Source: Dongia sedimenti
GTDB taxonomy: Bacteria; Pseudomonadota; Alphaproteobacteria; Dongiales; Dongiaceae
Direction of reading: 5' to 3'
Length of the DNA stretch: 64,000 bases
Assembly (NCBI GenBank): GCA_030715195.1
Contig: JAUYVI010000005.1
Coordinates: 310,001-374,000, forward strand
Positions within the stretch are counted from its first letter, which is position 1. Each line of letters begins with the position of its first letter. This document shows positions 233 to 31,428 of the stretch, piece by piece. A model generated the notes under the pieces. The model was not told the DNA's origin. It ran no database searches and was given only the letters and a program-made list of their open reading frames with translations. A program made the position numbers and the translations under genes.

Positions 233-618
233 GCGACAGCCCGGTGACGACGCTGCGTCTGGACAAATGGCTCTGGCATGCGCGCTTCGCGCGCACGCGT
301 TCGCTGGCGGCGAAGCTGGTGTCCGAGGCAAGTTTCCGCATCAACGGCAATCGGACCGAGAAGGCGCATCACCCGGTTCGGCCGGGTGACGTGCTGACCT
401 TCCCGCTCGGCCCGCATATCCGCGTGATCAAGGTTCTGGCTTTGGGCGCCCGCCGCGGCCCCGCGCCGGAGGCGCGGCTGCTTTACGAGGATCTCGATCC
501 GCCACAGCTGACGCCACGGCCGGCGAGGGAGCCTTTGCTCGCCGCCCGGGAGGAGGGCGCCGGCCGTCCGACCAAGCGCGAGCGGCGCGCCATCGACCGG
601 CTGCATTCCGACGAATAG
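229..618 (+). CDS. S4-domain RNA-binding protein (HslR-like)
   Basis: This 129-residue protein begins at the ATG inside the ATGA overlap with the helicase tail. A longer in-frame reading from base 37 would run inside the upstream gene and is unlikely. Residues 8-70 form an S4 domain: RLDKWLWHARFARTRSLA, then a segment ending in INGNRTEKAHHPVRPGDVL. This is the fold by which HslR-type proteins grip structured RNA, including stalled ribosomal complexes. The C-terminal 50 residues are charged and probably disordered (RPTKRERRAIDRL). Function is inferred from the family; the exact RNA target is unknown. Confidence 0.88.
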   Translation: MSDSPVTTLRLDKWLWHARFARTRSLAAKLVSEASFRINGNRTEKAHHPVRPGDVLTFPLGPHIRVIKVLALGARRGPAPEARLLYEDLDPPQLTPRPAREPLLAAREEGAGRPTKRERRAIDRLHSDE

Positions 619-751
619 CGTGCGCTTGCCCGATATATCTGCCTTGTTGACTCGGTCGGTTGCGGGCGGGGAGGGGCTATGCTAGCTAGCCCCCCTGCCT
701 GTCCAATCGCCGGATTCCAGCGGGAACCGGTGTAGTTTCGGAGTTGCCCAA

Positions 752-1087
752 ATGGCTTATGTCGTCACCGAGGCCTGCATCAAGTGCAAGTATATGGACT
801 GTGTGGAGGTCTGCCCGGTCGACTGCTTCTATGCCGGCGAGAACATGCTGGTGATCCACCCCGACGAGTGCATCGACTGCGGGGTCTGCGAGCCGGAATG
901 CCCGGCCGATGCCATCCTCCCGGATTCCGAGAGCGGCATGGAGAAGTGGCTGGAAATTAACCGCGAATATGCGACGAAATGGCCCAATATCACCCGCAAG
1001 GGCGATGCTCCGGCCGATGCCGATCAGTGGAAGGGCGTGCCGGACAAGTTCGAGAAGCACTTCAGCGCCAACCCCGATAAAGCCTGA
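752..1087 (+). CDS. fdxA: 7Fe ferredoxin FdxA
   Basis: A 111-residue cytoplasmic electron carrier of the Azotobacter ferredoxin I type. Cys9, Cys17 and Cys50 are placed to bind a [3Fe-4S] cluster. Cys21, Cys40, Cys43 and Cys46 are placed to bind a [4Fe-4S] cluster, the same spacing as FdI shifted by one residue. The C-terminal 55 residues ([17 protein letters not shown] onward) are the usual extension that wraps the clusters. It lies in the conserved order S4 protein, fdxA, carD. Its redox partner cannot be told from the sequence. Confidence 0.95.
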
Positions 1088-1184
1088 TAATTCAACGACC
1101 TGATGCGGTGCCGGCGCGCCGCCCTAGGTCTGCAGTCCGGGGTCCGGCGGGGCACTGGTGCGGCCCGCGCATAGCTGCGTTTCC

Positions 1185-1215
1185 TTGAATTCCGGCCCCC
1201 TTTCTGGTATATATT
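1185..1215 (+). promoter_or_regulatory. Candidate sigma-70 promoter for carD
   Basis: TTGAAT (1185-1190) is followed after 17 bp by TATATA (1208-1213); an alternative -10 is TATATT (1210-1215). It lies in the 393-bp gap between fdxA and the chosen carD start, which otherwise holds no convincing gene. The implied leader of about 260 nt is long. Predicted by eye only. Confidence 0.45.
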
Positions 1216-1480
1216 TCGCGTAGGTCGTTCGGGCGGTTTTCGGCGGAAATGTTAACGTATTCCGCACCGTCCAAGCCTCAAATCGGGGACAACGCAATTC
1301 GGATAGGCACTATCCGGAGCGGCGTTGCTTGTGCCCCCGCCTCGGGCCCTGCGTGGGTCTGGCCTTAACGGTCAGGCCGCTGAGTTCAGGGTGACCGGGT
1401 GAGGACGATCTTGCGTCGGCTGAAGTCAGCCGCCGCCCTGCCTGTTGATAGGCCTGATGAATCGGATTTGGGAGCGGAAC

Positions 1481-2035
1481 GTGGTCGATAAGAAGAAAAC
1501 AGTGGTGGCGGCGAAACCGGCAGCGGCCGTGAAGGCGAAGGACAAGGATTCCGGGTTCAAGAAAGGCGACTTCGTCGTCTATCCGACCCATGGCGTCGGC
1601 AAGGTCCTCGGGGTCGAGAATCAGGACATTTCCGGCCACACGCTCCAGGTCATCATCATCAGCTTCGACAAGGACCGCATGACTCTGCGCGTGCCGGTCG
1701 CCAAGGCGCGGAATTCGGGCCTGCGCAAGCTCTCCTCGCGCAAGGTGATGGAGACTGCCCTGGCGACTCTGAAGGGCCGTTCCCGCGTGAAGCGCGCAAT
1801 GTGGTCGCGCCGCGCCCAGGAATACGAAGCCAAGATCAATTCCGGCGACCCGGTGTCGATCGCGGAAGTCGTCCGCGACCTGCACCGCAATGCCGATCAG
1901 CCGGATCAGTCCTACAGCGAGCGGCAGATCTATCAGGCGGCGCTCGACCGACTGGTTCGCGAGCTCGCCGCGATCGATGGGATCGACGAGACGCAGGCCA
2001 CCCAGCGCCTGCACCAGGTGTTGAAGGCGGCCTAA
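1481..2035 (+). CDS. carD: CarD/CdnL family transcriptional regulator
   Basis: A 184-residue protein of the family that binds the RNA polymerase beta subunit and stabilises open promoter complexes, acting on many promoters including those for rRNA. After a basic, Ala/Lys-rich N-terminus, the RNAP-interacting Tudor-like domain begins near residue 26 (FKKGDFVVYPTHGVGKVLG). A helical DNA-binding C-terminal domain follows, with RVKRAMWSRRAQEYEAKI at its start. I chose GTG at 1481 because GGAG at 1471-1474 sits 6 nt upstream. In-frame ATG 1457 and TTG 1445 are possible but lack such a site. Confidence 0.9.
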   Translation: MVDKKKTVVAAKPAAAVKAKDKDSGFKKGDFVVYPTHGVGKVLGVENQDISGHTLQVIIISFDKDRMTLRVPVAKARNSGLRKLSSRKVMETALATLKGRSRVKRAMWSRRAQEYEAKINSGDPVSIAEVVRDLHRNADQPDQSYSERQIYQAALDRLVRELAAIDGIDETQATQRLHQVLKAA

Positions 2036-2052
2036 GCCGCCGTTCTCGAGAT

Positions 2053-2093
2053 CGGCGGGGCCGCCCTCTTACGTTCAAGAGTTGGCCCCGCCG
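2053..2093. terminator. Hairpin in a convergent gap, possible bidirectional terminator
   Basis: CGGCGGGGCC (2053-2062) pairs perfectly with GGCCCCGCCG (2084-2093), and an inner CTCTT/AAGAG stem (2066-2070/2077-2081) extends it. It lies just after carD and faces the converging exporter gene. There is no T-run directly after the stem, so intrinsic termination is not certain. Confidence 0.5.
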
Positions 2094-2138
2094 GCGATCT
2101 CTCTCCTCGGAGAGGCCCCCAGCGGTCCCAACCGCAAG

Positions 2139-2181
2139 CGACGGATGGCATCACCGCTTCCCCAAGCGGCGTCATCCGTCG
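2139..2181. repeat. Long stem-loop between convergent genes
   Basis: CGACGGATG (2139-2147) pairs with CATCCGTCG (2173-2181). Inside it CCGCTT (2154-2159) pairs with AAGCGG (2164-2169) around a CCCC loop. It is the second strong stem-loop in the 184-bp gap between carD and the exporter gene. A T5 run (2193-2197) lies 11 nt downstream on the plus strand. It could be a terminator part or an extragenic palindrome. Confidence 0.5.
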
Positions 2182-2219
2182 GGGGTGTCCGATTTTTCCA
2201 TCCTGAACAACGATCCGAT

Positions 2220-3116
2220 TTAGGCCGCCATGCGCGCGGCCTTCGCGGCGTGCAGCAGCGTGTAGATCCCGCACAGCATGATCACGACCGCACCGCCGAT
2301 GGTGATCGCGTCCGGGAAATCCGCGAACAGCAACAGGCCAAAGAGCGTGCCCCAAATCAGCTGCGAATACATGAAGGACGAGACCAAAGCCGCCGCGGCA
2401 TAGCGGAAGGCCAGGATCAGCAGCAGGTTGCCGAGGCCCGAACAGGCGCCGGTTGCGGCCATCAGACCGAAATCCAGCGCGCCCGGCATGCGCCAGTCGG
2501 CGGCGGTGAAGGGCAGGCTGATCAGGAACAGCATGGCGAAATAGACCAGCAGCAGCGCGCCGCTGCTTTCCGTCTTGGCGATCCTTCGCAGCATCAGCAT
2601 CGAGAGCGCGAACAGCGCGCCGGAAGCCAGCATCGCCAATTGTCCCCACCCCATGCCGCCGGCGCCGACGGTGCCGAAATCGGGGCGCAGGATCAGCAAC
2701 ACCGCGGCAAAGCCGATCACCACGGCCAGCCACTGCCGCCAGCCCACGCGCTCGCCCAGGAACGGCGCGGAGAGCGCGGTCACGGCGAGCGGCGTCAGGA
2801 AGGCGATGGTGTAGGCATCCGCCAGCGGGATCATCGAGAAGGATAAGAAAGCGAGGACCAGGCTGGCGGCGCCGAGGCCGCAGCGCAGCACGACGATGCC
2901 GAGCCGGCGCGGCTTGAGACTCGCGGCCCCCTCCCACAGCACCAGCACGGGCAAGGCCGCAATCAGGGCAAACACCGCGTCGATCGTCGCGACCTCGAAG
3001 ACCGAATAGCCGCGGGTCGACAGCAGCTTGGTCAGGGCATCCGCGGTCGCGAGGACGGCGAAAGCGAGGAAGGCCAAGCCGGTGCCGAGAACCGTCCGGT
3101 CGTCAGGACTGCGCAT
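2220..3116 (-). CDS. EamA/RhaT family drug/metabolite exporter
   Basis: This 298-residue inner-membrane protein has about ten hydrophobic helices arranged as two EamA repeats (roughly residues 10-145 and 155-292). That is the fold of the drug/metabolite transporter superfamily, which exports amino acids, nucleosides or small toxic molecules. PLADAYTIAFLTPLAVTALSAPFLGERV in the first repeat is a typical EamA segment. The substrate cannot be read from sequence. The gene is monocistronic, convergent with carD and divergent from the phosphatase-fold gene 175 bp away. Confidence 0.88.
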   Translation of the reverse strand: MRSPDDRTVLGTGLAFLAFAVLATADALTKLLSTRGYSVFEVATIDAVFALIAALPVLVLWEGAASLKPRRLGIVVLRCGLGAASLVLAFLSFSMIPLADAYTIAFLTPLAVTALSAPFLGERVGWRQWLAVVIGFAAVLLILRPDFGTVGAGGMGWGQLAMLASGALFALSMLMLRRIAKTESSGALLLVYFAMLFLISLPFTAADWRMPGALDFGLMAATGACSGLGNLLLILAFRYAAAALVSSFMYSQLIWGTLFGLLLFADFPDAITIGGAVVIMLCGIYTLLHAAKAARMAA

Positions 3117-3291
3117 GCGTGCTGCGACTCCGAATCACGTTTCGACCGGAGGACCCGACCGACCCCGGCTGCATATTACCCAATGCGGCACTGCGGTCAG
3201 TGCGGAAATCGGCGCCAAAGCTGCTAGACTGCGCCGCACGCGCGATTCGCGCCTGATTCGCCCCGCATTCGCGTCGGAGAAACGGGAGACG

Positions 3292-4104
3292 ATGCAGGAC
3301 CCTGCCCAAGAACCGGAAAAGTTCGCGGTGTTGCGCCGCGCGCGCCGCATCTGGGCGATCTCGCCGGTGCATGGCGACATGACCCGTCTGCGCGCCCTCC
3401 ATGCCTATATCGAGCCCCAGTTCGAGCCCGGCGATCGTATCGTCTATCTGGGCGGCTATCTCGGCCGGGGGCCGGAGGTCGCCGGCACGGTCGACGAACT
3501 GATCGCCTTTCGCCGCCAGATCATTTCCCGCCCCCACATGTTCGCCTATGACATCGTCTATCTCCGCGGCCAACAGGAGGAGATGTGGTCGAAGCTGCTG
3601 CAACTGCAGTTCGCACCCAATCCGAAGGAGGTACTGCCCTGGATGCTGCAGCACGGCGTCGGCGCGACCATCACCGCCTATGGCGGCGATCCCGCCCAGG
3701 GCATCATCAATTGCCGCGAGGGTGCCATGGCGATCACCCGCTGGACCAACAGCCTCCGCGCCGCGATGCAGGCGCGGCCCGGCCATGCGGCGCTGATGTC
3801 GCGCACGCGCCGCGCGGCCTATACCGACGATCAAGGGCTGCTGTTCGTCCATGCCGGTCTCGATCCCGAGCGTCCGCTGTCGGCGCAGGGCGACAGCCTC
3901 TGGTGGGGCAGCCCGGGCTTTGCGAACTTGAACCATCCCTACGGTGAGTTCCTGCGCGTGGTGCGCGGCTATGACCACGGGCATCACGGCCCGAGCGCCA
4001 GTCCCTTCACGCTGACGATCGACGGCGGCTGCGGCTATGGCGGCAAGGCCTTGGCCGGCCTGCTCGACCCTAAGGGTGAGTTGTTGAACCTCGTCGAGGC
4101 GTAA
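3292..4104 (+). CDS. PPP-phosphatase-fold protein lacking metal ligands (pseudophosphatase)
   Basis: This 270-residue protein follows the layout of bacterial PPP-type Ser/Thr phosphatases almost block for block, but its metal-binding residues are changed. The family GDxHG reads SPVHG (24-28), so the Asp is Pro25. GDxxDRG reads GGYLGRG (54-60), so both Asp are Gly. GNHE reads GQQE (93-96), so Asn and His are both Gln. His27 and the later VHAG His remain. The usual VxGHT block reads VRGYDHGHHG. I infer a fold kept for binding rather than catalysis. Start ATG 3292 follows GGGAG at 3284-3288. The 3' end overlaps the convergent cyclase gene by 35 bp. Confidence 0.72.
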   Translation: MQDPAQEPEKFAVLRRARRIWAISPVHGDMTRLRALHAYIEPQFEPGDRIVYLGGYLGRGPEVAGTVDELIAFRRQIISRPHMFAYDIVYLRGQQEEMWSKLLQLQFAPNPKEVLPWMLQHGVGATITAYGGDPAQGIINCREGAMAITRWTNSLRAAMQARPGHAALMSRTRRAAYTDDQGLLFVHAGLDPERPLSAQGDSLWWGSPGFANLNHPYGEFLRVVRGYDHGHHGPSASPFTLTIDGGCGYGGKALAGLLDPKGELLNLVEA

Positions 4105-5941
4105 CGGTCGCATCGGCCGTGGCTTCGTCCGGTCCATCCAGCCTGAACAACTGGATCGGATCTGCGCGCTCGACCACGGCGTACTTGCCCAGCGGCTCCT
4201 GCGCGATCTCGACCGGCAGCCGTCCGGCGACGGTCTCGCTCGCCACGATGATGACGTCCGAGCGCCCGTCGTCGATCTCCTTGCCGAACTGCTCCAGGCG
4301 CTGCGCCACGTTCACCGTGTCGCCGACCAAGGTGTAGTTGACCCGTCCGGTTGCGCCGATATTGCCGGCCAGCGCCGTGCCGGTATGGATGCCGATCCGC
4401 ACGCGCACCGGATTGAGACCCTTGCGCCGGCGCCGCGCATTGTCGGTCCTGAGGCGCCGCCCGATCTCCACCGCCGCCCGCGCCGCGCGCTCGGCATGGT
4501 CGCCCTGCGCGGTCGGGGCACCCCAGAAGGCCATGACGGAATCGCCGATGTATTTGTCGATGGTGCCGCCCTCGGCGTGGATCGCTTCGCCGAGGATCTC
4601 GAAATGCCGGTTGAGAAAGCGCGCCAGGGCCGGTGGCCGCAAGCGATGCCCGATCGCGGTGAAGCCGATGATGTCGGTGAACAGCACCGTCACCTCGCGC
4701 TCCTTCGCGGTGAAGGATTCCGCGCTGTCCGGCTGCATCAGCGCCGGCACCAGCGTCCGCGGGACATAGGTCGAAAGCCAGGTCAGCCCCGAACGCAGGC
4801 CGTTATAGGCCTCGGCGGCGGTATCGAACTCGCGCAGCCAGCTGCCCCTCATAGGCTGAGTCTTGTCGAACTCGAGCGCGCTCAGATGCCGGACCGCGCC
4901 GGCGAAATTGTGGATCGGACGGCTGATCGAGCGGCCGAGATAGAGCGCGCCCAGCACCGCCGCGGCGGCGACGCCGAACGAGACCCAGAGTGCTGTCTGC
5001 AGGTTGTTGAACTGCACCTCGATTTCGGAAGCGCGGATCGACAGCACCGCGATCCACGGCTTGCTGCCGACCACGTCGACGGCGCGCGAGAGGTAAAGCC
5101 AGCGCTTGCCGGCGACATGCTGTTGCTGGACCGAGAAATTCAGCGCCCGGGCCGGATGCAGCGTGGGATCGTCCCGGTTCATCGGGTCGAAGGCCCGCAG
5201 CACCGGATCGTCCACGTCCGCCGCCTTTGGCAGCGCCCTGTCGTCGCTGCCCTGATACCGCGGATCGGCCAAGGCGGGATGCACGATCAGCGAGGTGTCG
5301 TCGAGCATCACGAAGGTATTGGCGCCCGGCTCGGCCACGCGGGCAATGACCCGCCGCGAGAGGTCCGGGACCGAGATCAGCGTCGCGATGACGCCGATGA
5401 CCTCGCCATTGCGACGCAACGGCGCCAGCAGCGGCAGGCCGGTCACGTCGAGGCCCGGCCAGTAGATCGGCTTCGCCCAATCGGGCTGCTGCATCGCCGC
5501 GCCGTCGCGGTAAACCAGCCGGAACGGAGGATCGTCAAGCGCCGATAGCGTGGTCGTGGCGAACGGCATGCCTTCGACGCTGCGCGCCGCCGCCACGGTG
5601 TGAAGATCGGAGCGGATGAAGGCGACCCCGATCACCTGTGGCGAGGCGGCGAGCGAGCCCAGCAGCAGATCCGCGATCCGCCGGTCGTCGCCGATCGCCA
5701 CCCGGTCGGACAGGATGTAGGCGGAAAGAAAGCGCGACGCGTCCTCGGCCGGTTGCAGCTCGGCCTTGATCGCCTCGGCCAAGGCGGCCGTGCGCGTGTC
5801 GCCCATCTCGGCCACCAGGTCGCCGGTGTTGCGGAAGGCGGCGGAATAAAGCTGGGCCGCCACGACCGCGGTGGTCAGCACAACGAGGCCGGCGAAGGCG
5901 AGCGCCAGCACCAGCCAGATCGGAGCCCGCAGGCGCTTCAT
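4070..5941 (-). CDS. Membrane class III adenylate/guanylate cyclase with Cache-like sensor and HAMP
   Basis: A 623-residue inner-membrane signalling enzyme predicted to make cAMP from ATP. The order is TM1 (about 8-30), a large periplasmic sensor of dCache type (about 31-312), TM2 (313-335), HAMP (336-385) and a class III catalytic domain (about 412-600). The two metal-binding Asp are D423 (FTDIIGFT) and D467 (IGDSVMAFW). The substrate Lys is K463 (IDKY), and transition-state residues N544 and R548 lie in GDTVNVAQRLE. Motifs are intact, so it should be active. Its start is 9 bp after the M48 protease stop, suggesting one transcript with the protease and nuclease. The sensed ligand is unknown. 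Confidence 0.9.
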   Translation of the reverse strand: MKRLRAPIWLVLALAFAGLVVLTTAVVAAQLYSAAFRNTGDLVAEMGDTRTAALAEAIKAELQPAEDASRFLSAYILSDRVAIGDDRRIADLLLGSLAASPQVIGVAFIRSDLHTVAAARSVEGMPFATTTLSALDDPPFRLVYRDGAAMQQPDWAKPIYWPGLDVTGLPLLAPLRRNGEVIGVIATLISVPDLSRRVIARVAEPGANTFVMLDDTSLIVHPALADPRYQGSDDRALPKAADVDDPVLRAFDPMNRDDPTLHPARALNFSVQQQHVAGKRWLYLSRAVDVVGSKPWIAVLSIRASEIEVQFNNLQTALWVSFGVAAAAVLGALYLGRSISRPIHNFAGAVRHLSALEFDKTQPMRGSWLREFDTAAEAYNGLRSGLTWLSTYVPRTLVPALMQPDSAESFTAKEREVTVLFTDIIGFTAIGHRLRPPALARFLNRHFEILGEAIHAEGGTIDKYIGDSVMAFWGAPTAQGDHAERAARAAVEIGRRLRTDNARRRRKGLNPVRVRIGIHTGTALAGNIGATGRVNYTLVGDTVNVAQRLEQFGKEIDDGRSDVIIVASETVAGRLPVEIAQEPLGKYAVVERADPIQLFRLDGPDEATADATVTPRRGSTTHP

Positions 5942-21977: not shown

Positions 21978-22970
21978 CTACCGTGCCGCCTTCACGACCA
22001 CATCGCTAACCGCGCCGGCTGGCGCCCGGGTTAGCACCGGATCGGGCGCCGCGGTCAGCAGCAGGTTGACCGTGCGGTCATAGGCATCCGGATCGAGCTT
22101 GCCCATCGGCCCCTGGTCCAGCGCCAGGAGGTCGTCCACCGCGTCGATCGCCTGCCGCAGCACGGCGGGATCGACCGATGCGAACTTGGGATCGGCGTGC
22201 AGCAGGTCGAACGCCGTCTTCGGCGAGACATGCGCCAGCTGCCAGCCGCGCCGCGCCGCGTCCAGGAAGGCCGCGAATGCGGCGACACGGTCGGGTTTGG
22301 CGAGATCCGCCTCGCGCGCATAGAGACCGTCTTCCAGGGTCGCCTGGCCGATCTCCTGGTAGCGATACTGCTTCAGCCCCTGCAGCGGAATGTCGGCTGC
22401 GGCGAATTCCAGCGGTGCCGCATAGCTGAACGTCGTCGCGCAGTCCGACTGCAGGCGCTGAAAGGCTTCGAGCCCGTAATTCTGCCGCAGCACCGTGACG
22501 CTGCCCGGCCCGCCGAACGGGTTCAGCGACAATCCGGAGATCCAGGCATAAAACGCGCTCTCCAGCCCGCCGAACCAGACCCCGACCACATGATTCTTCA
22601 AGTCGGCCGGCTGGTCGATGGTCGGGCGGCAGACGACTTCCATCCCGGCTTTGCGGAAGATCTGCGCGACATGGACGATTCTTTCTCCGGCCTCGCGCCG
22701 TTTCAACGCGATCGGCATCAACTCGACCGCGAGGTCCACCTTCTTCTGCACCAGGGTGTCGAGCGACCGCCGGTCGCCGCTCGGCGCTGTCAGCGTCACC
22801 GCGACCCCCGCAGCGGTGAAATAGCCCTTGTCCTGCGCCAGATAGAATCCAACGGTGCGTGGCGACAGGCCCTCGGGCAGGGCGACGGCCAGCGGCGAAT
22901 CCGCCAGCACGGATCGCGCCAGCATCATGCCCGCCAACCCGAGCCCGAAAAGAAAATGCCGCCCGCGCAT
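21978..22970 (-). CDS. ABC-type substrate-binding protein (NMT1/SsuA-like), orphan
   Basis: A 330-residue exported protein. The N-terminus MRGRHFLFGLGLAGMMLARSVLADS is a signal peptide, followed by an NMT1/THI5-like binding fold with GFYLAQDKGYFTAAGVAV and the segment VVGVWFGGLESAFYAWI. Relatives bind thiamine precursors, sulphonates or nitrate. No ATPase or permease partner lies nearby, so it must use a transporter encoded elsewhere. I chose ATG 22970, with AGGCAGG just upstream; longer forms would overlap the divergent gene. It lies tail-to-tail, 4 bp from the exporter permease, and head-to-head with the hydroxyproline dehydratase gene (73-bp gap), which hints at a linked role. Confidence 0.82.
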   Translation of the reverse strand: MRGRHFLFGLGLAGMMLARSVLADSPLAVALPEGLSPRTVGFYLAQDKGYFTAAGVAVTLTAPSGDRRSLDTLVQKKVDLAVELMPIALKRREAGERIVHVAQIFRKAGMEVVCRPTIDQPADLKNHVVGVWFGGLESAFYAWISGLSLNPFGGPGSVTVLRQNYGLEAFQRLQSDCATTFSYAAPLEFAAADIPLQGLKQYRYQEIGQATLEDGLYAREADLAKPDRVAAFAAFLDAARRGWQLAHVSPKTAFDLLHADPKFASVDPAVLRQAIDAVDDLLALDQGPMGKLDPDAYDRTVNLLLTAAPDPVLTRAPAGAVSDVVVKAAR

Positions 22971-23043
22971 GTCCTGCCTTTGCTTGCTTTCGGAACCGGG
23001 CGAGACTACAGCCGAAGCCATTGAGGTCAAGCAGGCGATCACC

Positions 23044-24069
23044 ATGCAGCGCAGTCCCGATTCCGCCACACGGATCGAAACCGTGGAGATGCACACCGGC
23101 GGCGAGCCGGTCAGGATCGTGACCGCGGGCTATCCCGAGATTCCGGGCACCACACTGCTCGAAAAGCGCCGCTTCGCCCGCGACCATCTCGACCACTTCC
23201 GCACGCTCATCATGTTCGAGCCGCGCGGCCATTATGACATGTACGGCGTGTTGCCCGTCGCCCCCGATCACCCGGAAGCCGATCTGGCCGTGCTGTTCAT
23301 CCACAACGAGGGCTACAGCACCATGTGCGGCCACGCGACCATCGCGCTCGGCCGCTACGCTTTCGATCGCGGCCTGATCGAGCCGGAAGGCGATGTCGCA
23401 CGCCTCAACCTGCAATGCCCCTGCGGCTTGGTCCGCGTGACGGTGGCGCTCGAGGACGGCAAGCCGGGACGGGTCGGCTTCGTCAGCGTGCCGGCCTTTG
23501 CCTTCGCTTTGGATCTCGATGTGGATGTGCCCGGCCTCGGCACGGTCACGCTCGATATCGGCTATGGCGGCGCCTTCTATGCTTTCTTGCCGGCAGCGCG
23601 CTTCGGCCTCGACGTGCGCGCGACGCCGACCCGCGACCTGGTCGAGGTCGCCGATCGCGTGACCAAGGCGGTGCAGAGCCAAGTCGCACTCGACCATCCG
23701 GATTCGCCGGATCTCGCATTTCTCTACGGCACCATCCTCACCGACGGCCGCATTGGCGTGACGCAGGACGGTCCCAGCGCCAACATCTGCGTCTTCGCCG
23801 AGCGCGAGGTCGATCGCTCGCCCACCGGCAGCGGTGTCACCGCGCGGATCGCGCTCGCGGTCGCGCGCGATCCCGATCTCATCTCGGCCGATTTCACCTT
23901 CGAAAGCGTGACCGGCAGCCGCTTCACCGGCCGCGTCGCCGAGCAGACCACCGCCGGCCGTTTCACTGCGATCCGCGCCGAGGTTGCCGGCCGCGCCTAT
24001 TATACCGGCAGCTCCGTCTTCACCCTGGAGCCGGACGATCCACTGGCCGGCGGGTTCCTGCTGCGATGA
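23044..24069 (+). CDS. trans-3-hydroxy-L-proline dehydratase (proline racemase family)
   Basis: A 341-residue protein of the proline racemase fold. Racemases use two Cys; here the first is kept (Cys95 in TMCGHAT) while the second is Thr261 in DRSPTGSG. Cys-to-Thr at this place marks trans-3-hydroxy-L-proline dehydratases, which make delta-1-pyrroline-2-carboxylate on the way to proline. MHTGGEP at 16-22 is the family N-terminal motif. Start ATG 23044; longer readings run antisense into the divergent gene. The stop overlaps the gpsA start by 4 bp. The matching ketimine reductase is not in the window. Confidence 0.85.
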   Translation: MQRSPDSATRIETVEMHTGGEPVRIVTAGYPEIPGTTLLEKRRFARDHLDHFRTLIMFEPRGHYDMYGVLPVAPDHPEADLAVLFIHNEGYSTMCGHATIALGRYAFDRGLIEPEGDVARLNLQCPCGLVRVTVALEDGKPGRVGFVSVPAFAFALDLDVDVPGLGTVTLDIGYGGAFYAFLPAARFGLDVRATPTRDLVEVADRVTKAVQSQVALDHPDSPDLAFLYGTILTDGRIGVTQDGPSANICVFAEREVDRSPTGSGVTARIALAVARDPDLISADFTFESVTGSRFTGRVAEQTTAGRFTAIRAEVAGRAYYTGSSVFTLEPDDPLAGGFLLR

Positions 24070-25058
24070 GCCTGCAGCGCATTTCCGTCATCGGCGCCGG
24101 TGCCTGGGGCACCGCGCTTGCCATCCTCGCCCAGCGCGCCGGCCGCGATGTGACACTATGGCCACGCCGCGCCGAGCAGGCCGACGCGCTGCGCGGCGCA
24201 CGCGAGAATGCGGCCTATCTTCCCGGCGTGCCGCTCGATCCCGGCCTCCATATCGAAACCGACCTGGCGCGCGCCCTCGACGCTGATGCCGTGCTCTATG
24301 CCCAGCCGGCGCAGCATTTTCGGGGCTTCTGCCGCAACGCCGCGCCGCTCTGGAAGGGTGCGGCCCTGGTCATCGCCGCCAAGGGCATCGAATGCGAGAC
24401 CGGTGCGCTGCTGAACGAGATCGCCGCCGAAGCGCTCGCCGCCGCGCCGGTCGTGATCCTCTCAGGCCCCAGCTTCGCCGCCGAGGCCGCGCGCGGCCTG
24501 CCGACCGCGGTGGCGCTCGCCGGTGACCGCGCCGACCTGGTCGAGGCGCTGATGGCGGCACTGGCACATGGCGCCTTCCGCCCTTATGGCTCCGACGATC
24601 CGATCGGCGTCGAGGTCGCGGGGGCCGTCAAGAACGTGCTCGCCATCGCCTGCGGCATCGTGCTGGGGAAGGGCCTCGGCGAGAATGCGCGCGCCGCCTT
24701 GATCACCCGCGGCCTTGCCGAAGTCACGCGGCTCGCACTGGCAAAGGGCGGCCGCGCCGAGACGCTGATGGGCCTCGCCGGCATCGGCGATCTCATTCTC
24801 ACCTGCACCAGCTTGAAGTCGCGCAACACGTCGCTCGGCTTCGATCTCGGCCAAGGCAAGCCCTTGGCCGAAATTCTCGCCGCGCGGCGCAGCGTCGCCG
24901 AAGGCGTTACCACCGCGGCGGCGGTCGCGACCCTCGCCGCGCGCATCGGCGTCGAGATGCCGATCGCCGGCGCCGTGCATCGGATCCTCGCCGAGCCCGC
25001 GGCGATCGACGACGAGATTCGCGCCTTGCTCGCACGTCCGCTCAAGCGCGAGTCCTGA
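24066..25058 (+). CDS. gpsA: Glycerol-3-phosphate dehydrogenase [NAD(P)+]
   Basis: A 330-residue cytoplasmic enzyme that reduces dihydroxyacetone phosphate to sn-glycerol 3-phosphate for phospholipid synthesis. The dinucleotide motif is GAGAWGTALA (10-19). LSGPSFAAE and the catalytic Lys in AVKNVLAIACG are present, as are GLAGIGDLILTCTSLKSRN and the C-terminal EGVTTAAAV block. Length is normal. It is translationally coupled to the hydroxyproline dehydratase through ATGA, an arrangement with no obvious metabolic logic. Confidence 0.95.
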   Translation: MSLQRISVIGAGAWGTALAILAQRAGRDVTLWPRRAEQADALRGARENAAYLPGVPLDPGLHIETDLARALDADAVLYAQPAQHFRGFCRNAAPLWKGAALVIAAKGIECETGALLNEIAAEALAAAPVVILSGPSFAAEAARGLPTAVALAGDRADLVEALMAALAHGAFRPYGSDDPIGVEVAGAVKNVLAIACGIVLGKGLGENARAALITRGLAEVTRLALAKGGRAETLMGLAGIGDLILTCTSLKSRNTSLGFDLGQGKPLAEILAARRSVAEGVTTAAAVATLAARIGVEMPIAGAVHRILAEPAAIDDEIRALLARPLKRES

Positions 25059-25268: not shown

Positions 25269-25556
25269 ATGGCGAACGACCTGCAGTCTCGCGTCGACGC
25301 AATGTTCGCGCGCGACAAGCTCTGGGCATATGCCTTCGTCGTAGTGCTTTGGGCGACGCTGATCTTCGTTTATGGCTCGCTGATGCCGATCATTCCAGAC
25401 ACCGGGGTGCACATCGTCATCCTGGTTTCCGGCGTCATTGTCGGCCTGTTCAACACCATCTCGATCGTGGCGATGATCTCGCATTACAGCCACGACCGGA
25501 AGTTCATCTACGAACTCGACATCCGCCATTTGGACGAGCGTCACGCGCCGCGGTGA
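25269..25556 (+). CDS. Small two-TM membrane protein, APC operon gene 1
   Basis: A 95-residue protein I do not recognise. A short charged N-terminus (SRVDAMFARDKLW) leads to TM1 (about 20-41), a tight turn PDTG, TM2 (about 46-69) and a charged C-terminus (SHDRKFIYELDIRHLDERH). Both ends are predicted in the cytoplasm. A strong ribosome site (GAGGGGAGA) precedes the ATG. It is the first of three small membrane proteins directly before an APC permease and ends 74 bp before the second. Its arrangement suggests an accessory subunit of that permease. Confidence 0.75.
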   Translation: MANDLQSRVDAMFARDKLWAYAFVVVLWATLIFVYGSLMPIIPDTGVHIVILVSGVIVGLFNTISIVAMISHYSHDRKFIYELDIRHLDERHAPR

Positions 25557-25630
25557 CCGCGCGTTCGTAGGCGCTCGGGCCGCGGGACGACCCGCGAACC
25601 GCCGCATGAAGATCATGGGGGAGAACGACC

Positions 25631-26056
25631 ATGGCTAAGTCCGCCTATCAGCCGCCCCGGCAATCGACGCTCGGGCAGATCATCGATTCGGTGGTGATCC
25701 TCGGCGCCGTGTTCCTGGCGCTGTGGTTGCCGATTGCCGCCAACCTGGCGGGCGCCGACACCAAGCAGATCCTGCCGCCGGGCGTCACCGTCGCCGAGAA
25801 CGCCGACGGCTCGAAGACCTGGACCGGGCTGACCTGGGAAGGTCTCGGCCAGAACGCCACCATGCAGGCGCAGTGGGAGAAGCTCGGCTATTCGATCGAG
25901 GACGCGGCGGGCCTGATCACGGTCTGGTTCGACTACGAGATCAACTGGCTGCTGGCTTTGGTCACCGCGGTTGTGGTGATCGGCTATTTCGCGATCCTGC
26001 TCTATTACTCGGAGCGCGAGTACAAGGAAGTCATCGCCGAGAAATTCGACCGGTAA
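25631..26056 (+). CDS. Two-TM membrane protein with periplasmic loop, APC operon gene 2
   Basis: A 141-residue protein without a recognised family. TM1 (about 20-40) and TM2 (about 104-126) enclose a loop of about 60 residues with LPPGVTVAENADGSKTW and a Trp-rich part, predicted periplasmic. The C-terminus (YYSEREYKEVIAEKF) is cytoplasmic and charged. GGGGGAG lies 8 nt before the ATG. The loop could contact a binding protein or gate the substrate path of the APC permease encoded two genes downstream. That role is inference from gene order only. Confidence 0.75.
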   Translation: MAKSAYQPPRQSTLGQIIDSVVILGAVFLALWLPIAANLAGADTKQILPPGVTVAENADGSKTWTGLTWEGLGQNATMQAQWEKLGYSIEDAAGLITVWFDYEINWLLALVTAVVVIGYFAILLYYSEREYKEVIAEKFDR

Positions 26057-26102
26057 CAACGCTGCTGGGGATCGCGCATCGCGTCCCGCGACGGAGGGGC
26101 AA

Positions 26103-26288
26103 ATGGATTTCTGGGACATTCTGCAATACGGGTCGTGGGCCGTCGCGGCCCTGCTGCTGCTCTGGATGGTGGCCGATGCCTTCATGGTCAGCAGCCAGTT
26201 CACCGAGGACGTGCTGACCAGCTCGCAGGAAGGCATCGACGAGCTGGCCGCCCAGCAGCAGGCGCACAACGCGGGGAAGGGGTCGTAA
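26103..26288 (+). CDS. Single-TM small protein, APC operon gene 3
   Basis: A 61-residue protein: a short N-terminus, one TM helix (about 9-31, including GSWAVAALLLLWMVADAF) and a polar, Gln- and Glu-rich tail (QEGIDELAAQQQAHNAG) likely helical in the cytoplasm. GGAGGGG precedes the ATG at good spacing. The stop is 1 bp before the permease start, the tightest link in the operon, so its translation is probably coupled to the permease. No family recognised. Confidence 0.72.
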   Translation: MDFWDILQYGSWAVAALLLLWMVADAFMVSSQFTEDVLTSSQEGIDELAAQQQAHNAGKGS

Positions 26289-26289
26289 C

Positions 26290-27726
26290 ATGAGCGATTC
26301 TGCAGTGACGGCGACCCAGACCGCCAATCCGAACGCGATCAACCTGAAGAAGGTCCTCGGCCCGGTGCATGTCTGGGCGCTCGGCGTCGGCATCGTGCTG
26401 GTCGGCGAGTTCATGGGCTGGAACTACTCGGTGGCGAAGGGCGGAGCCTATGGCTCGTTGATCGCCTGCTGGGTGATCGGCCTGCTCTACACCTGCGTCG
26501 CCATGATCGATTCCGAGATCACATCGACCGTGGCCGCGGCCGGCGGCCAGTATGCCCAGGCCAAGCACACGACGGGACCGCTGATGGCGTTCAACGTCGG
26601 CATCTACCTGGTCATGGCCTACACCATGCTCGAAGCCGCCGACGTGCTGGTGTTCGGCGACCTGGTCTCGATCGGTGCCGGCGAGCTCGGACGGGAGGGC
26701 GTCGATCCCAAGCCCTTCGTCTTCCTCGCGGTCGCGGTGCTGGCCTGGCTTAATTACCGCGGCGTGTTCATGGCGCTCAGCGTCAATTTCCTGATCACCG
26801 CGGTCGCCTTCTTCTCGATCATCATCCTCTGGGTCGGCGTGCAGCCGTTCTCGCCGGGCGAGATCACCCAGCATGCGGAAATGCTGGCGATCGTGCCCCT
26901 GCCCGAGCTCTCCAGCGTGCAGGGCCTGCCCTATGGCTGGCTCGGCGTGCTCGCCGCTTTCCAGTTCGGCACCTGGTACTATCTCGGCATCGAGGGCACC
27001 TGCCAGGCGGCCGAGGAAGTGCGCTCGGCCGGCCGGTCGCTGCCGCTCGGCACCATGAGCGGCATGATCACACTGCTGATCGCCGCGTCGCTCACCTGGT
27101 GGATCTGCGCCGGCATGCTGCCTTGGGACTATCTCGGCCAGGCGCTGGCGCCGCTCTACGACGCCTCGAAGATGACCGGCAGCAACTTCCTGGTGGTCTT
27201 GCTCTGGGTGGCGACCGTGTTCTCCGCCATCGCCTCGGCCAACGGCTGCATCAACGATGCGTCGCGCGCCTGGTTCTCCATGGGTCGCGATCGCTATCTG
27301 CCGCAATGGTTCGCGGCGGTGCATCCCAGGTATCGCACGCCCTACCGGTCGATCCTGTTCCTGATCCCGATCGCCGTCGCCTTCGGCTTCACCGGGTTGC
27401 TGGCGCAGACCATCACCTTCTCGATCGTCTCGGGCCTGCTCGGCTACACCTTCATGCCGATCAACCTCACGAAGTTCCGGCGGAAGTGGCCCTTGGGCTC
27501 GATCAAGCGCGGCTTCGTGTCGCCGATGCACCCGATCCCGGCGATCGTGCTGATGACACTCTGCGTGCTGACCTTCTTCGCCGTCTTCCTCGGCTTCGGC
27601 ACGCAGCTCTTCGTGATGATCGGCTTCTACATCTTCATTTCGCTCTACTTCGTCTACCGTCGTTACAAGTACGTCCGGCGCGGTGACCAGTTCACCATGG
27701 CCTGGCCGAAGCCGCAGGGTTACTGA
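26290..27726 (+). CDS. APC superfamily amino acid/amine permease
   Basis: A 478-residue inner-membrane transporter with about twelve TMs. GIVLVGEFMGWNYSVAKGGAYGSL in TM1 and the following AAAGGQYAQA are close to the ethanolamine-permease branch of the APC family, where the broken TM1 forms the substrate site. GIEGTCQAAEEVRSAGRSLPLG in the central part is the usual APC loop. The substrate is likely a small amine or amino acid. Its linkage to three small membrane-protein genes is the notable feature. A strong terminator follows at 27780, so the four genes form one unit. Confidence 0.9.
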   Translation: MSDSAVTATQTANPNAINLKKVLGPVHVWALGVGIVLVGEFMGWNYSVAKGGAYGSLIACWVIGLLYTCVAMIDSEITSTVAAAGGQYAQAKHTTGPLMAFNVGIYLVMAYTMLEAADVLVFGDLVSIGAGELGREGVDPKPFVFLAVAVLAWLNYRGVFMALSVNFLITAVAFFSIIILWVGVQPFSPGEITQHAEMLAIVPLPELSSVQGLPYGWLGVLAAFQFGTWYYLGIEGTCQAAEEVRSAGRSLPLGTMSGMITLLIAASLTWWICAGMLPWDYLGQALAPLYDASKMTGSNFLVVLLWVATVFSAIASANGCINDASRAWFSMGRDRYLPQWFAAVHPRYRTPYRSILFLIPIAVAFGFTGLLAQTITFSIVSGLLGYTFMPINLTKFRRKWPLGSIKRGFVSPMHPIPAIVLMTLCVLTFFAVFLGFGTQLFVMIGFYIFISLYFVYRRYKYVRRGDQFTMAWPKPQGY

Positions 27727-27779
27727 GAATTACCGAGAGCTATCGATCCAGCCGATCCTCCCGGCTGTAGGCGTGCCGT

Positions 27780-27811
27780 GGCCGGCGGGGCGACCCGCCG
27801 GCCGTTCTTTT
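27780..27811 (+). terminator. Intrinsic terminator of the small-subunit/APC operon
   Basis: GGCCGGCGGG (27780-27789) and CCCGCCGGCC (27794-27803) form a perfect 10-bp stem with a GCGA loop, followed by GTTCTTTT (27804-27811). It closes the 25269-27726 unit and separates it from the next genes. Confidence 0.88.
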
Positions 27812-27844: not shown

Positions 27845-28525
27845 ATGAATCCAACCATGGAATATCTCGCCGTCGCGGCGTTCGGCATCCTCGGCGTCTT
27901 CGTGCTGGCCGGCATCTACCGGCGCGACCGGGCCAAGCTCCGCGCGTTGCGCGGGGCGGTCTTCGCACCGGCCTATCCGCTGTTCGAGTCCTATCGGGTG
28001 ACTCAGGACAGCGTCGATTTTCCCGAGCTGCGCGGCCGTTATCGCGGGCACGATTTTCACGTCGACGCGCTGGTCGACATGGTGACCTTCCGCAAGCTGC
28101 CGAGCCTGTGGCTTCGGGTGTCGTTGCTGGCGCCGGTGCCGTATCGCGGCACGCTCGACATCATGGTGCGTTCACAGAACGTCGAGTTCTATTCGCCGGC
28201 CAACGAACTTGACCATGCGATCCAGCCGCCCGCCGGCTGGCCCGCGGGCACGATCGTCAAGACCGACAATCCCGATGCCATGCCGCCGGCGGCGTTGGTC
28301 GATCCGCACATGAGCTTCTTCGCGGCGCCGAAAGCCAAGGAGATCCTGATCACGCCGAAAGGGGTCCGTCTGGTCTATCAGACCGATCAGGGAACGCGGG
28401 CGGAGTATCTCGTGCTGCGCAGCGCCAATTTCGCGGCGCCGCAGGTCACGGCGGAGGTGATGGCCGATCTGCTCGATCGCGCGATCGCGTTGTATCAAGA
28501 CTTGGCGGGCAGGAGCGCATCGTGA
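27845..28525 (+). CDS. Membrane-anchored protein of unknown function
   Basis: A 226-residue protein. One TM (about 5-24) is followed by RRDRAKLRALRG and a soluble domain of about 190 residues rich in beta-strand-like segments (FPELRGRYRGHDFHVDALVD; LWLRVSLLAPVPYRGTLDIM). No known motif is seen. I started at ATG 27845; a reading from further upstream would cross the terminator. It overlaps the next small gene by 4 bp (GTGA), so the two are probably made together. Confidence 0.7.
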   Translation: MNPTMEYLAVAAFGILGVFVLAGIYRRDRAKLRALRGAVFAPAYPLFESYRVTQDSVDFPELRGRYRGHDFHVDALVDMVTFRKLPSLWLRVSLLAPVPYRGTLDIMVRSQNVEFYSPANELDHAIQPPAGWPAGTIVKTDNPDAMPPAALVDPHMSFFAAPKAKEILITPKGVRLVYQTDQGTRAEYLVLRSANFAAPQVTAEVMADLLDRAIALYQDLAGRSAS

Positions 28526-28857
28526 AGAAGACCCGCCCTACGCCGAAACCGCCGGCGAAAGCCGCGCCCAAGCCGCCGCTCCATCCCTACCTCGTCCTCG
28601 GCGTGGCGGTCCTCCTACCAGGCATGGGTCAGGTCCTCAACAACCAGGCGGGGCGTGGCCTGCTCTTCGCCTTCACCGCCTTCGCCCTGGGATTCATCAC
28701 CGCCAAGTATGCGGCGCCGGAGGCTTCCATCCTCGGCCGCTATGCCGGCGGCTTCTTCATCTACGCGGTCGCCGTCATGGACGCCTACAAATGGGCTCGC
28801 GTGCGCTGGGAAATCTTTCACCATCGGGGCGATGCGCAGACACCGGTCGGCGACTGA
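28522..28857 (+). CDS. Small membrane protein with GxGQ..N.Q..RG motif
   Basis: A 111-residue protein that starts with GTG inside the stop of the preceding gene. A Pro/Lys-rich cytoplasmic tail (TPKPPAKAAPKPPLHPY) is followed by about three TMs. The segment LLPGMGQVLNNQAGRGLL recalls the conserved turn of TM2-domain and DUF5683-like proteins, whose function is poorly known. I name no function. Confidence 0.62.
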   Translation: MKKTRPTPKPPAKAAPKPPLHPYLVLGVAVLLPGMGQVLNNQAGRGLLFAFTAFALGFITAKYAAPEASILGRYAGGFFIYAVAVMDAYKWARVRWEIFHHRGDAQTPVGD

Positions 28858-28910: not shown

Positions 28911-29336
28911 ATGGCCGACCAAAGGATTCTTTGCGCGACCGATGGCTCGGCCCTGTCCGAGAAGGCGGTGATTCACGCCATCAACTGGGCGCAGCAACTC
29001 AACCAGTTCCTCGCCTTCATCACGGTGACCGACGGCTCGGAGATCAAATTCATCGTCTGGGACGAGGCGAAACTCGCCGCCGGCGATTTGCCGGTCGACA
29101 AGTCGCTGCTGGTCGCCCTGGAACGGGCGCTGGCTGCCGGGCTGAAGCGCGTCAGCTGTGTGCGCGGCACCAGCCCCGACATCGCCGACGGCGTCGTCAC
29201 CTATGCCGAGAAGAACCACTATCACCACATCATCGTCGGCAGCGCCGGCCGCAGCGGCACCGCGCGCTTCCTCAAAGGCTCGGTCGCCGAGGACATCGTG
29301 GTCCGCGCCCATTGCCCGGTCACCATCGTCCGCTGA
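28911..29336 (+). CDS. Universal stress protein (UspA family)
   Basis: A 141-residue single-domain USP. The N-terminal strand ILCATDGS and the C-terminal nucleotide motif GSAGRSGTARFLKGSV (G-x2-G-x9-G-S) point to an ATP-binding subtype. Such proteins act as cytoplasmic stress or energy-state adaptors and are often encoded beside transporters. It lies between the unknown membrane pair and the second APC permease, with no strong terminator directly after it. Confidence 0.88.
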   Translation: MADQRILCATDGSALSEKAVIHAINWAQQLNQFLAFITVTDGSEIKFIVWDEAKLAAGDLPVDKSLLVALERALAAGLKRVSCVRGTSPDIADGVVTYAEKNHYHHIIVGSAGRSGTARFLKGSVAEDIVVRAHCPVTIVR

Positions 29337-29748: not shown

Positions 29749-31428
29749 ATGACGGCGATTACCGAAGGTGCGCACGCCAATCTGCACCGAACGATCGATT
29801 GGAAAGGGGCGTTCTGGGTTGCGAGCGGCGTCCCCGCGCTCGTGCTGTTCTCCATCGGCGGCATCGCCGGCACGGTCGGCAACGTAGCCTTTGCCGTCTG
29901 GATCGTCTCGATGTTCATGGGCTTCATCCAGTCCTTCACCTATGCTGAGATCGCCGGCCTGTTCCCCAACAAGTCGGGTGGTGCTTCGGTCTATGGTGCC
30001 GCGGCCTGGCTGCGTTACAGCAAGTTCATTGCGCCGCTCTCGGTCTGGTGTAACTGGTTCGCCTGGTCGCCGGTGCTCTCGCTCGGCACCTCGATTGCGG
30101 CCGGCTACATCCTCACCGCGATGGCACCCTTGCCGGACCAACAGGCGATCGATGCCTATATCGCGGCCAATGCGGGTGCGACCGTGGAAACGGCAACGCA
30201 AGCGCTGACGCCGTGGATCCGGACCGCCGACGCCAGTCTAGGCAGCTTCACGATCGGAAGCGTGGGCTTTTCGTTCAACGCCACCTTCTGGATCGGCGCC
30301 GTTCTGATGCTGGCGTGCTTCTTCATCCAGCATCGCGGCATCTCCGGAACCGCCCGCGTCCAGACCATCTTCGGCATCTTGGTCATCGTGCCGATGGTGA
30401 TCGTCGGCGTGGTGCCGTTCCTTAACGGCAACTTCCACAGCGAGAACTTCTCGCCGCTGGTTCCGCTCGCCGTGGCCTATGCGCCGGATCCAGGCTCCTG
30501 GAACATAGCCGGCTGGACCCTGGTGCTCGGCGGCATGTTCATCGCCGCTTGGTCGACCTATGGATTCGAAACCGCCGTCTGTTACACCAGCGAGTTCAAG
30601 AATCCCGCGACCGACACGTTCAAGGCGATTTTCGCCTCGGGTCTGCTCTGCATTCTCATCTTCGTGCTGGTCCCGGTGGCCTTCCAGGGCTACCTCGGCC
30701 TGACCGGAATGCTGGCGACGCCTGTGGTCGATGGTTCCGGGGTGGCCGACGTGATGGCCACCATGGTTGGCGGCGGACCCATCATCCATGCCATCATGGT
30801 GATCCTGATGATCATAGCGCTGATGCTCTGTATCATGACGGCGATGGCCGGGTCGTCGCGGACGCTCTACCAGGGCTCGGTGGACGGCTGGCTACCGCGC
30901 TACCTCAGCCATGTGAACCATCATGGTGCGCCGACCGCGGCGATGTGGACCGATCTGGGTGCCAACCTCATCGTGCTGGCGATCGCGGCAACCGACGCGG
31001 CTTCGTTCTTCTTCATTCTCGCCGTGTCGAACTGCGGTTACATCATCTTCAATTTCCTCAACCTCAATGCCGGCTGGATCCATCGGATGGACAGTGGCCA
31101 TGTCAGCCGGCCCTACAAGGCGCCGACCATCATCATCGCGCTTGGCGGGATCTTCGCTTACGTCAATGCCGTCTTCATGGGAGCCGGCGCCAAGGTCTGG
31201 AATCCCCTTGCGCTCTGGGCCGGCTTGATCTTCGCGGCGCTGATCATTCCGGTCTTCTGCTTCCGCCATTACATCCAGGATGGCGGCAAGTTCCCATCGC
31301 GGATGCTCGACGATCTCGGACTGAAGGAAGGCGACCTGGGTCACAAGAAGGCGGGCTTTCTGCCTTACCTCACCCTGATCGCCGGCGCCGTAGTGGTGTT
31401 GGTTTCGAACTACATCTTCACGCTCTAG
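29749..31428 (+). CDS. APC superfamily permease, long form
   Basis: A 559-residue inner-membrane transporter with about twelve TMs and an extra-cytoplasmic insertion of about 45 residues (near 125-172) between early helices. FSIGGIAGTVGN in TM1 and AEIAGLFPNKSGGASVYGAAAW in TM2 are typical APC substrate-site segments, and STYGFETAVCYTSEFKNPATDTFKAI is the TM6 region. Substrate is probably an amino acid or amine. GAGGGAG is 7-8 nt before the ATG. No small-subunit genes accompany it, unlike the APC gene at 26290. Expression is likely controlled by the structured leader and terminator upstream. Confidence 0.88.
   Translation: MTAITEGAHANLHRTIDWKGAFWVASGVPALVLFSIGGIAGTVGNVAFAVWIVSMFMGFIQSFTYAEIAGLFPNKSGGASVYGAAAWLRYSKFIAPLSVWCNWFAWSPVLSLGTSIAAGYILTAMAPLPDQQAIDAYIAANAGATVETATQALTPWIRTADASLGSFTIGSVGFSFNATFWIGAVLMLACFFIQHRGISGTARVQTIFGILVIVPMVIVGVVPFLNGNFHSENFSPLVPLAVAYAPDPGSWNIAGWTLVLGGMFIAAWSTYGFETAVCYTSEFKNPATDTFKAIFASGLLCILIFVLVPVAFQGYLGLTGMLATPVVDGSGVADVMATMVGGGPIIHAIMVILMIIALMLCIMTAMAGSSRTLYQGSVDGWLPRYLSHVNHHGAPTAAMWTDLGANLIVLAIAATDAASFFFILAVSNCGYIIFNFLNLNAGWIHRMDSGHVSRPYKAPTIIIALGGIFAYVNAVFMGAGAKVWNPLALWAGLIFAALIIPVFCFRHYIQDGGKFPSRMLDDLGLKEGDLGHKKAGFLPYLTLIAGAVVVLVSNYIFTL

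Follow-up and report, generated by a model that had tools for sequence, protein, structure and literature searches.

We asked whether an APC-family permease encoded in Dongia sedimenti has dedicated partners among the small membrane proteins encoded beside it, and what such a system might transport. The analysis starts from a 64,000-nt stretch of D. sedimenti DNA, forward strand (the window, to whose positions all coordinates refer), in which three genes for small membrane proteins, termed S1, S2, and S3, precede the permease gene and two more, termed D1 and D2, follow it. The genome comparisons show that the genes keep the same set and order, are strictly co-inherited, and are tied to the N-methylglutamate (NMG) pathway of methylamine use. 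The genomic support for a six-gene unit is strong, and that for its connection with methylamine is moderate. One amine carrier that, in the bacteria examined, is inherited with the same five small partners and with genes for methylamine use suggests a multi-part methylamine uptake machine. We put at roughly one in two the probability that the six genes form a dedicated methylammonium uptake system, in which an APC carrier with five partner subunits would feed the NMG pathway; the substrate, the direction of transport, a stoichiometric complex, and the role of each small subunit are what we infer. Methylamine is a widespread source of carbon and nitrogen and the enzymes of the NMG pathway are known; the unit offers a concrete candidate for a methylamine carrier, and it occurs in organisms amenable to experiment (Paracoccus aminophilus, Sinorhizobium, and Aminobacter).

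The six-gene set and its co-inheritance

Four open reading frames (ORFs) of 95, 141, 61, and 478 amino acids lie in a row where a preliminary description of the sequence had placed them, and the permease starts 1 bp past the S3 stop codon, as that description had noted. Each of the four starts is preceded by a purine-rich, ribosome-site-like stretch, in agreement with the ribosome sites claimed there, and hydropathy reproduces the reported helix counts of two, two, and one for S1, S2, and S3. The helix number is kept in 33 of 33 aligned S1 homologues and 32 of 32 aligned S2 homologues, window included. For S3, one helix is counted in 30 of 33 aligned rows (window included), the remaining three falling under the hydropathy cut-off.

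A permease scan of genome contigs gave 57 loci out of 62 candidate stretches, at 60–86% identity, and the small genes were sought in these loci by tblastn with the window proteins. Upstream of the permease, S1 was detected in 52 loci, S2 in 53, and S3 in 54, and the missing cases are all at contig ends (L053, L073, L081, L086, and L087). Since homologues with 27–69% identity (alignment rows) precede the permease in this many loci, S1, S2, and S3 are real genes. Clustering of the flanking ORFs revealed two further recurrent genes 3' of the permease, D1 (53 of 57 loci) and D2 (52 of 57); adding three plasmid loci to the same counts gives 56 and 55. Absences are again solely at contig edges (L047, L068, L069, L074, and L079). 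Locus L094, a 3,087-base contig that matches L047 in length and coordinates, ends within D1, consistent with edge-only absences. Wherever the contig extends, the gene order in the 57 related loci is S1-S2-S3-APC-D1-D2, and the S1, S2, S3, and permease genes are mostly separated by fewer than 100 bases, with frequent 4-base overlaps. One irregular locus, L080, departs from this spacing and has a late-starting permease match and extra stops in the reading frame, perhaps through sequencing error; it was counted for S1–S3 and D1–D2 and excluded from the permease alignment (A4). The alignments comprise 31–32 of the 52–54 S1–S3 homologues, and 29 of the 57 permeases together with the window's own. 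On the Sinorhizobium meliloti plasmid pSymB, S2 and S3 were found by tblastn (L110, 11388–11971) at a place where the record has no annotated gene, so the small genes have possibly been overlooked by annotation elsewhere too.

The conserved unit thus has six genes, D1 and D2 being conserved as well, and we rejected the earlier proposal of a four-gene unit closed by a 10-bp terminator. The structure behind that proposal, a hairpin with a 12-pair stem and a perfect 10-bp core, does lie between the permease and D1, but it is not the end of the conserved unit because D1 and D2 are located beyond it. Such sites are no more frequent than by chance in a hairpin scan (2 observed versus 2.9 expected in shuffles).

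We assessed the co-inheritance of the unit genes in plasmid and genome collections. PLSDB (72,556 plasmid records) was searched with five of the unit proteins, using thresholds of E ≤ 1e-60 for the permease, E ≤ 1e-3 for S1, S2, and D2, and E ≤ 0.1 for S3. The permease, S1, S2, and D2 match an identical set of 22 accessions, and S3 matches 20 of them, the set less two Paraburkholderia records; the 22 records are not independent, as 9 are from Aminobacter and 6 from Sinorhizobium. Among 289 alphaproteobacterial genomes, for which the queries were the permease (E ≤ 1e-100), S1, and S3, the permease clade and S3 occur in the same five genomes, and S1 occurs in those five and in G152. The latter was considered as a stand-alone copy of S1 and rejected: the match is weak (E 1.8e-4), and L093, the 3.2-kb locus around it, has Rhs-like repeat ORFs and no S2, S3, or permease, indicating a chance match. 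In a sample of 299 genomes of the phylum, S1 is present in 11, which represent three genera; each of the 11 loci contains S2, S3, and the permease as well.

Small genes that are common without the permease, which would speak against a dedicated partnership, were looked for in the plasmids and the 289 genomes and did not emerge. With all 22 plasmid records (20 for S3) and the same five genomes in agreement, the small genes are best regarded as dedicated partners of this permease clade, as had been proposed. The next APC proteins differ in both sequence and surroundings, standing at about 31% identity with no S1–S3-type partner genes within 1.5 kb on each side, and the permease gene has no match in any E. 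coli genome. Over 46 loci, distances between homologues correlate with those of the permease (r of 0.88, 0.87, and 0.87 for S1, S2, and S3, 0.82 for D1, and 0.76 for D2), which shows no more than shared descent because the comparison has no unrelated control gene.

Association with methylamine metabolism

The neighboring genes were named according to their family matches and to the account of the pAMI6 operons in PMC4543880. The recurrent flanking genes encode type III glutamine synthetase (GmaS), MgsA, MgsB, MgsC, MgdC, an XRE regulator, Amt, DmmA, and a trimethylamine N-oxide (TMAO) permease. NMG pathway genes are present in 29 of the 42 loci whose 5-kb flanks are complete, and any methylated-amine gene in 33; gmaS is found in 28, mgsC in 26, tmoP in 12, and dmmC in 9. 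The nine full-flank loci without methylated-amine genes nearby all belong to genomes that carry mgsC elsewhere, at an identity of at least 71%, and of the 16 locus genomes (out of 57) checked for mgsC, 13 were positive at that level. On the P. aminophilus plasmid pAMI6 the six genes are divergent to mgsA-mgsB-mgsC-gmaS, and on S. meliloti pSymB their neighbors are dmm/purU genes on one side and gmaS-mgsCBA-mgd on the other. Both records place them beside mgsABC-gmaS and mgdABCD. The 25 kb around the unit on Aminobacter aminovorans pAA01 hold glyA and ppc instead of mgs genes. This methylamine link had been overlooked in the preliminary description, which was right about the dedicated partnership and wrong about the four-gene extent and the terminator.

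In the phylum sample, mgsC (78–100% identity) occurs in 30 of the 299 genomes, namely in 11/11 genomes with S1 versus 19/288 without it (Fisher p 1.5e-12, uncorrected for kinship, the 11 genomes with S1 coming from three genera). S1 and mgsC lie within 10 kb of each other in eight of the 11 genomes, at 19 kb in one, and on different contigs in two, of which the window genome is one. The window genome has an XRE-mgsABC-gmaS locus on contig C12, where mgsC is 82% and gmaS 64% identical to the pAMI6 genes. In the 19 mgsC-positive genomes that lack S1, none of the six unit genes was found near mgsC (L121–L139). Judged from gene content, the six-gene unit is gained and lost as a block, and a genome with the unit almost always has the pathway, whereas a genome with the pathway need not have the unit.

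This pattern also bears on a reading in which the genes share only an operon and its regulation, and the small proteins act independently in methylamine metabolism. Partners in an operon need not touch one another, but the whole block is missing from the 19 mgs loci without S1, all of the small parts are membrane proteins, and helpers of the pathway alone should sometimes occur without the permease, of which there is no case in the samples searched. We consider such a purely regulatory association highly improbable.

Relatives of the mgs genes were seen in other places. Near the unit in L057 (positions 1–4400) and L055 (position 7096 onward) there are divergent relatives of mgsA, mgsB, gmaS (33–38%), and mgsC (31%), which perhaps represent an early-branching variant of the pathway. 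Another contig of the window genome (G000:C20:295891-300525) carries an mgsC paralogue at 53% together with fragments resembling glutamine synthetase, and similar paralogues at 52–54% were observed in G001, G576, G579, G585, G586, and G587.

Permease, partner proteins, and proposed complex

The permease is a member of the APC family by its matches to PF00324 (AA_permease, 95.5 bits; cut-off 24.6) and PF13520 (84.1 bits; cut-off 27). The nearest NCBIfam model is the ethanolamine permease TIGR00908, which has a primary-amine substrate of similar chemistry, but the score of 191.9 bits (E 1.9e-56) is half the cut-off of 381.75. The TMAO permease model NF053774 is absent from the 11 NCBIfam matches of the permease at E ≤ 1; the TmaP/TmoP proteins that it describes are likewise APC carriers of methylated-amine clusters, but they form a separate clade. 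Both ethanolamine permease and TMAO permease were rejected as labels on these grounds.

In amino-acid carriers, a Gly-x-Gly loop interrupts transmembrane helix 1 (TM1) and binds the substrate's carboxylate. The permease has an invariant G-E-[FY]-M-G in place of this loop, within a break segment of the form V-G-E-[FY]-M-G, and the glutamate E40 is present in all 52 rows that have a residue at this position. The bacterial carrier GkApcT has G-T-G at the TM1 break, and five distant APC proteins (L021, L023, L024, L025, and L028) have G-A-G. Just outside the clade, the four closest permeases have Asp (L018 and L020), Ser (L017), or His (L019) at the E40 position and, in common with the clade, a G-W-[NS]-[FY]-G segment after the break. 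Since a methylammonium-type substrate has no carboxylate, the TM1 glutamate would suit a small cation, and because of this acidic residue together with the methylamine neighborhood, methylammonium uptake appears to be the likeliest function.

Another cargo of the same pathway would be handled if the permease served ammonium export, methylammonium/ammonium exchange, or the uptake of a different amine, such as ethanolamine or dimethylamine. The NMG pathway does release ammonium, an ethanolamine permease is the closest curated model, and dmm or tmoP genes lie near some of the loci. We nevertheless regard these alternatives as unlikely: the common denominator of the neighborhoods is the methylamine pathway (gmaS and mgsC), whereas genes for dimethylamine and TMAO are rarer, and ethanolamine is disfavored by a TIGR00908 score at half of its cut-off. 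In the available portions of PMC5023235, PMC13390433, PMC4543880, PMC9800807, PMC9699525, PMC7574528, PMC5520151, and PMC10041152, TMAO carriers and Amt are named and a dedicated methylamine carrier is not. Amino-acid permeases and ammonium transporters of Methyloversatilis are reported to respond to methylamine (PMC5023235). The six-gene unit was not found described in the accessible text of the literature searched.

The S1, S2, and S3 proteins of the window match no Pfam or NCBIfam family. Scans of all alignment rows gave weak Pfam matches only, to DUF4153 for S1 (4/33 rows, best 8.2e-5), BCCT for S2 (1/32 rows, best 2.7e-4), and Patched for S3 (1/33 rows, best 0.016), and the DctQ, MetS, SSS small subunit, and MgtS families are not among the Pfam matches of the three proteins. 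A PDB sequence search at E ≤ 1 returned nothing for S1 or S3 and a best value of only 0.17 for S2. By charge, both ends of the two-helix S1 are inside, and its cytoplasmic C-terminal tail is conserved (consensus RHYxxDKxFIYGLDIxHLD). The two helices of S2 flank an outside, periplasmic loop of variable length. S3 combines its helix with a polar tail (consensus SEDVLTSSREG); the window protein has no charge bias, and the homologues carry Arg after the helix. D2 has weak Pfam matches to DUF5683 (12/35 rows, best 0.0012) and DUF6677 (6/35 rows, best 1.6e-5).

D1 was modeled with high confidence (predicted local distance difference test score, pLDDT, 94.1; predicted template-modeling score, pTM, 0.89). 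Its folded domain is probably cytoplasmic, because six basic residues come after the N-terminal helix. D1 was assigned to no family by sequence searches of Pfam, NCBIfam, and the PDB. In the structure search, the sole PDB match of the D1 model below E 0.001 is TtfA (6t84; Foldseek E 2.8e-4, probability 1.00, root-mean-square deviation 6.6), a transporter accessory factor that binds MmpL3 and is anchored by an N-terminal helix, with the domain on the cytoplasmic side (PMC6593404). D1 resembles TtfA in layout and, tentatively, in fold, but MmpL3 is of another carrier family with another substrate, and the similarity is of fold only.

The conserved cytoplasmic tails are what might be expected of a sensor or transceptor, in which the permease would sense methylamine and the S1–S3 and D1 tails would signal to XRE and GlxA-type regulators. 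Genes for such regulators adjoin many of the loci, and the spore germinant receptor GerAB is a precedent for APC-fold proteins in receptor complexes. This reading is very unlikely, as Pfam scans reveal no signaling domain in any of the five partners and the permease retains the conserved helices of the carrier family.

Small co-encoded membrane subunits occur in other secondary carriers, as in MetS of MetPS (NSS), DUF4212 proteins with SSS symporters, and DctQ with TRAP carriers. Those carriers belong to other families, and S1–S3 have no Pfam match to the subunits. We know of no secondary carrier with five co-encoded partners. Animal LAT, xCT, and b0,+AT carriers, whose light chains are among the PDB matches of the permease, likewise pair an APC protein with a dedicated partner; there it is one large glycoprotein (4F2hc or rBAT), whereas here there are several unrelated small proteins. 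The preliminary description assumed that APC carriers in bacteria are normally single polypeptides, a premise to which there is a published exception: GkApcT, which is among the closest solved relatives by sequence, was crystallized with the one-helix protein MgtS on TM5 (PDB 5oqt and 6f34; PMC5803215). This pair resembles the present case in joining a bacterial APC carrier to a small one-helix partner, but MgtS is an E. coli protein that accompanied the carrier in expression rather than being co-encoded, and it is one partner versus five.

The same pair lends weight to a reading in which the small partners attach to the permease only transiently, as factors for its assembly, stability, or regulation, much as E. 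coli MgtS does with MgtA. A stabilizing role is discussed for MgtS on TM5 of GkApcT (PMC5803215), and divergence is faster in S1, S2, and S3 (mean distances of 0.53, 0.49, and 0.55) than in the permease (0.28). Retention of five separate factors in every complete locus, however, exceeds the need of a loose helper, and the invariant residues of S1–S3 lie in helices and tails alike. Transient binding is therefore a possible but doubtful account.

In the methylammonium uptake system that we favor, the APC permease would be the carrier, with the conserved TM1 glutamate replacing the Gly-x-Gly carboxylate loop, and the imported substrate would enter the NMG pathway through GmaS, MgsABC, and MgdABCD. 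S1, S2, and S3 would be permanent helical subunits at the rim of the carrier, D1 a membrane-tethered cytoplasmic subunit with a TtfA-like fold, and D2 a further small membrane subunit. The universal stress protein (Usp) encoded after D2 in the window may add nucleotide-dependent control; a Usp gene lies directly 3' of the permease in 14 of the 57 loci, and Usp is fused to the permease C-terminus in two Methyloceanibacter (L048:4962-6794 and L049:5010-6842). Only tentatively do we propose the stronger form, in which the permease would work solely as a hetero-oligomer with S1, S2, S3, D1, and D2, as the dedicated methylammonium importer of NMG bacteria, with the TtfA-like subunit linking the carrier to the cell interior. 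If the complex is real, it would make the APC fold part of a bacterial assembly of six components, five of them from nameless protein families, and would offer a natural system for probing the function of small subunits in APC carriers.

Several observations weigh against the uptake system that we favor. Among the 30 genomes with mgsC, 19 manage without the unit, which makes the unit dispensable for the NMG pathway, and an Amt homologue is present in five of the 19 unit-free mgs loci (L132, L133, and L138, and weakly, at 23–27% identity, L134 and L136). Three locus genomes, all metagenome-assembled, are poor in mgsC, L055 and L057 having only a 41% paralogue and L064 none. In the window genome, the unit and the mgs genes are on separate contigs rather than adjacent, and mgd genes are absent from the 19 kb around the mgs genes, the only region in which they were sought. 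The D1–TtfA match is confined to the fold (TM scores 0.44/0.52, 12% identity) and a sequence search with D1 found no TtfA match, for which reason we count this likeness as a lead. To probe the complex, we modeled S1-S2-S3-APC of L046 as one chain by reading through three stop codons (63 rows). The permease part of this tandem model matches APC carriers with TMt up to 0.68, but the whole has a pLDDT of 62.5 and a pTM of 0.63, and it speaks neither for nor against an interface.

Features of the window

Features of the unit and of the adjoining genes are listed in the table. D1 has an alternative in-frame ATG start at 27845, and D2 starts with GTG in a 4-base overlap with the D1 stop.

Table. Unit genes and downstream features, with coordinates as window positions
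Feature	Position	Strand	Evidence
S1, 95-aa membrane protein, two helices	25269..25556	+	11 invariant columns in 33 rows; 52/57 loci
S2, 141-aa membrane protein, two helices	25631..26056	+	13 invariant columns in 32 rows; 53/57 loci
S3, 61-aa membrane protein, one helix	26103..26288	+	7 invariant columns in 33 rows; 54/57 loci
APC-family permease, 478 aa, proposed methylammonium carrier	26290..27726	+	Pfam AA_permease, 95.5 bits
Hairpin followed by TTCTTTT, possible attenuator	27778..27805	+	Hairpin scan; frequency at chance level
D1, N-terminal membrane helix and folded domain, probably cytoplasmic	27857..28525	+	53/57 loci; structure model
D2, 111-aa small membrane protein	28522..28857	+	52/57 loci; 22 plasmid records
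Usp	28911..29336	+	Pfam Usp, 78.8 bits
TMAO permease, tmoP/TmaP type	29749..31428	+	NCBIfam NF053774, 861 bits (cut-off 690)

Directly upstream of the unit (22855–25058), the window encodes a proline-racemase family protein and an NAD-dependent glycerol-3-phosphate dehydrogenase, a pair that did not stand out as conserved among the 57 loci when the flanking ORFs were clustered. With the TMAO permease downstream, the surroundings of the unit include another carrier for methylated amines, a situation also seen in L031 and L035; this permease is 61% identical to a homologue on P. aminophilus pAMI6.

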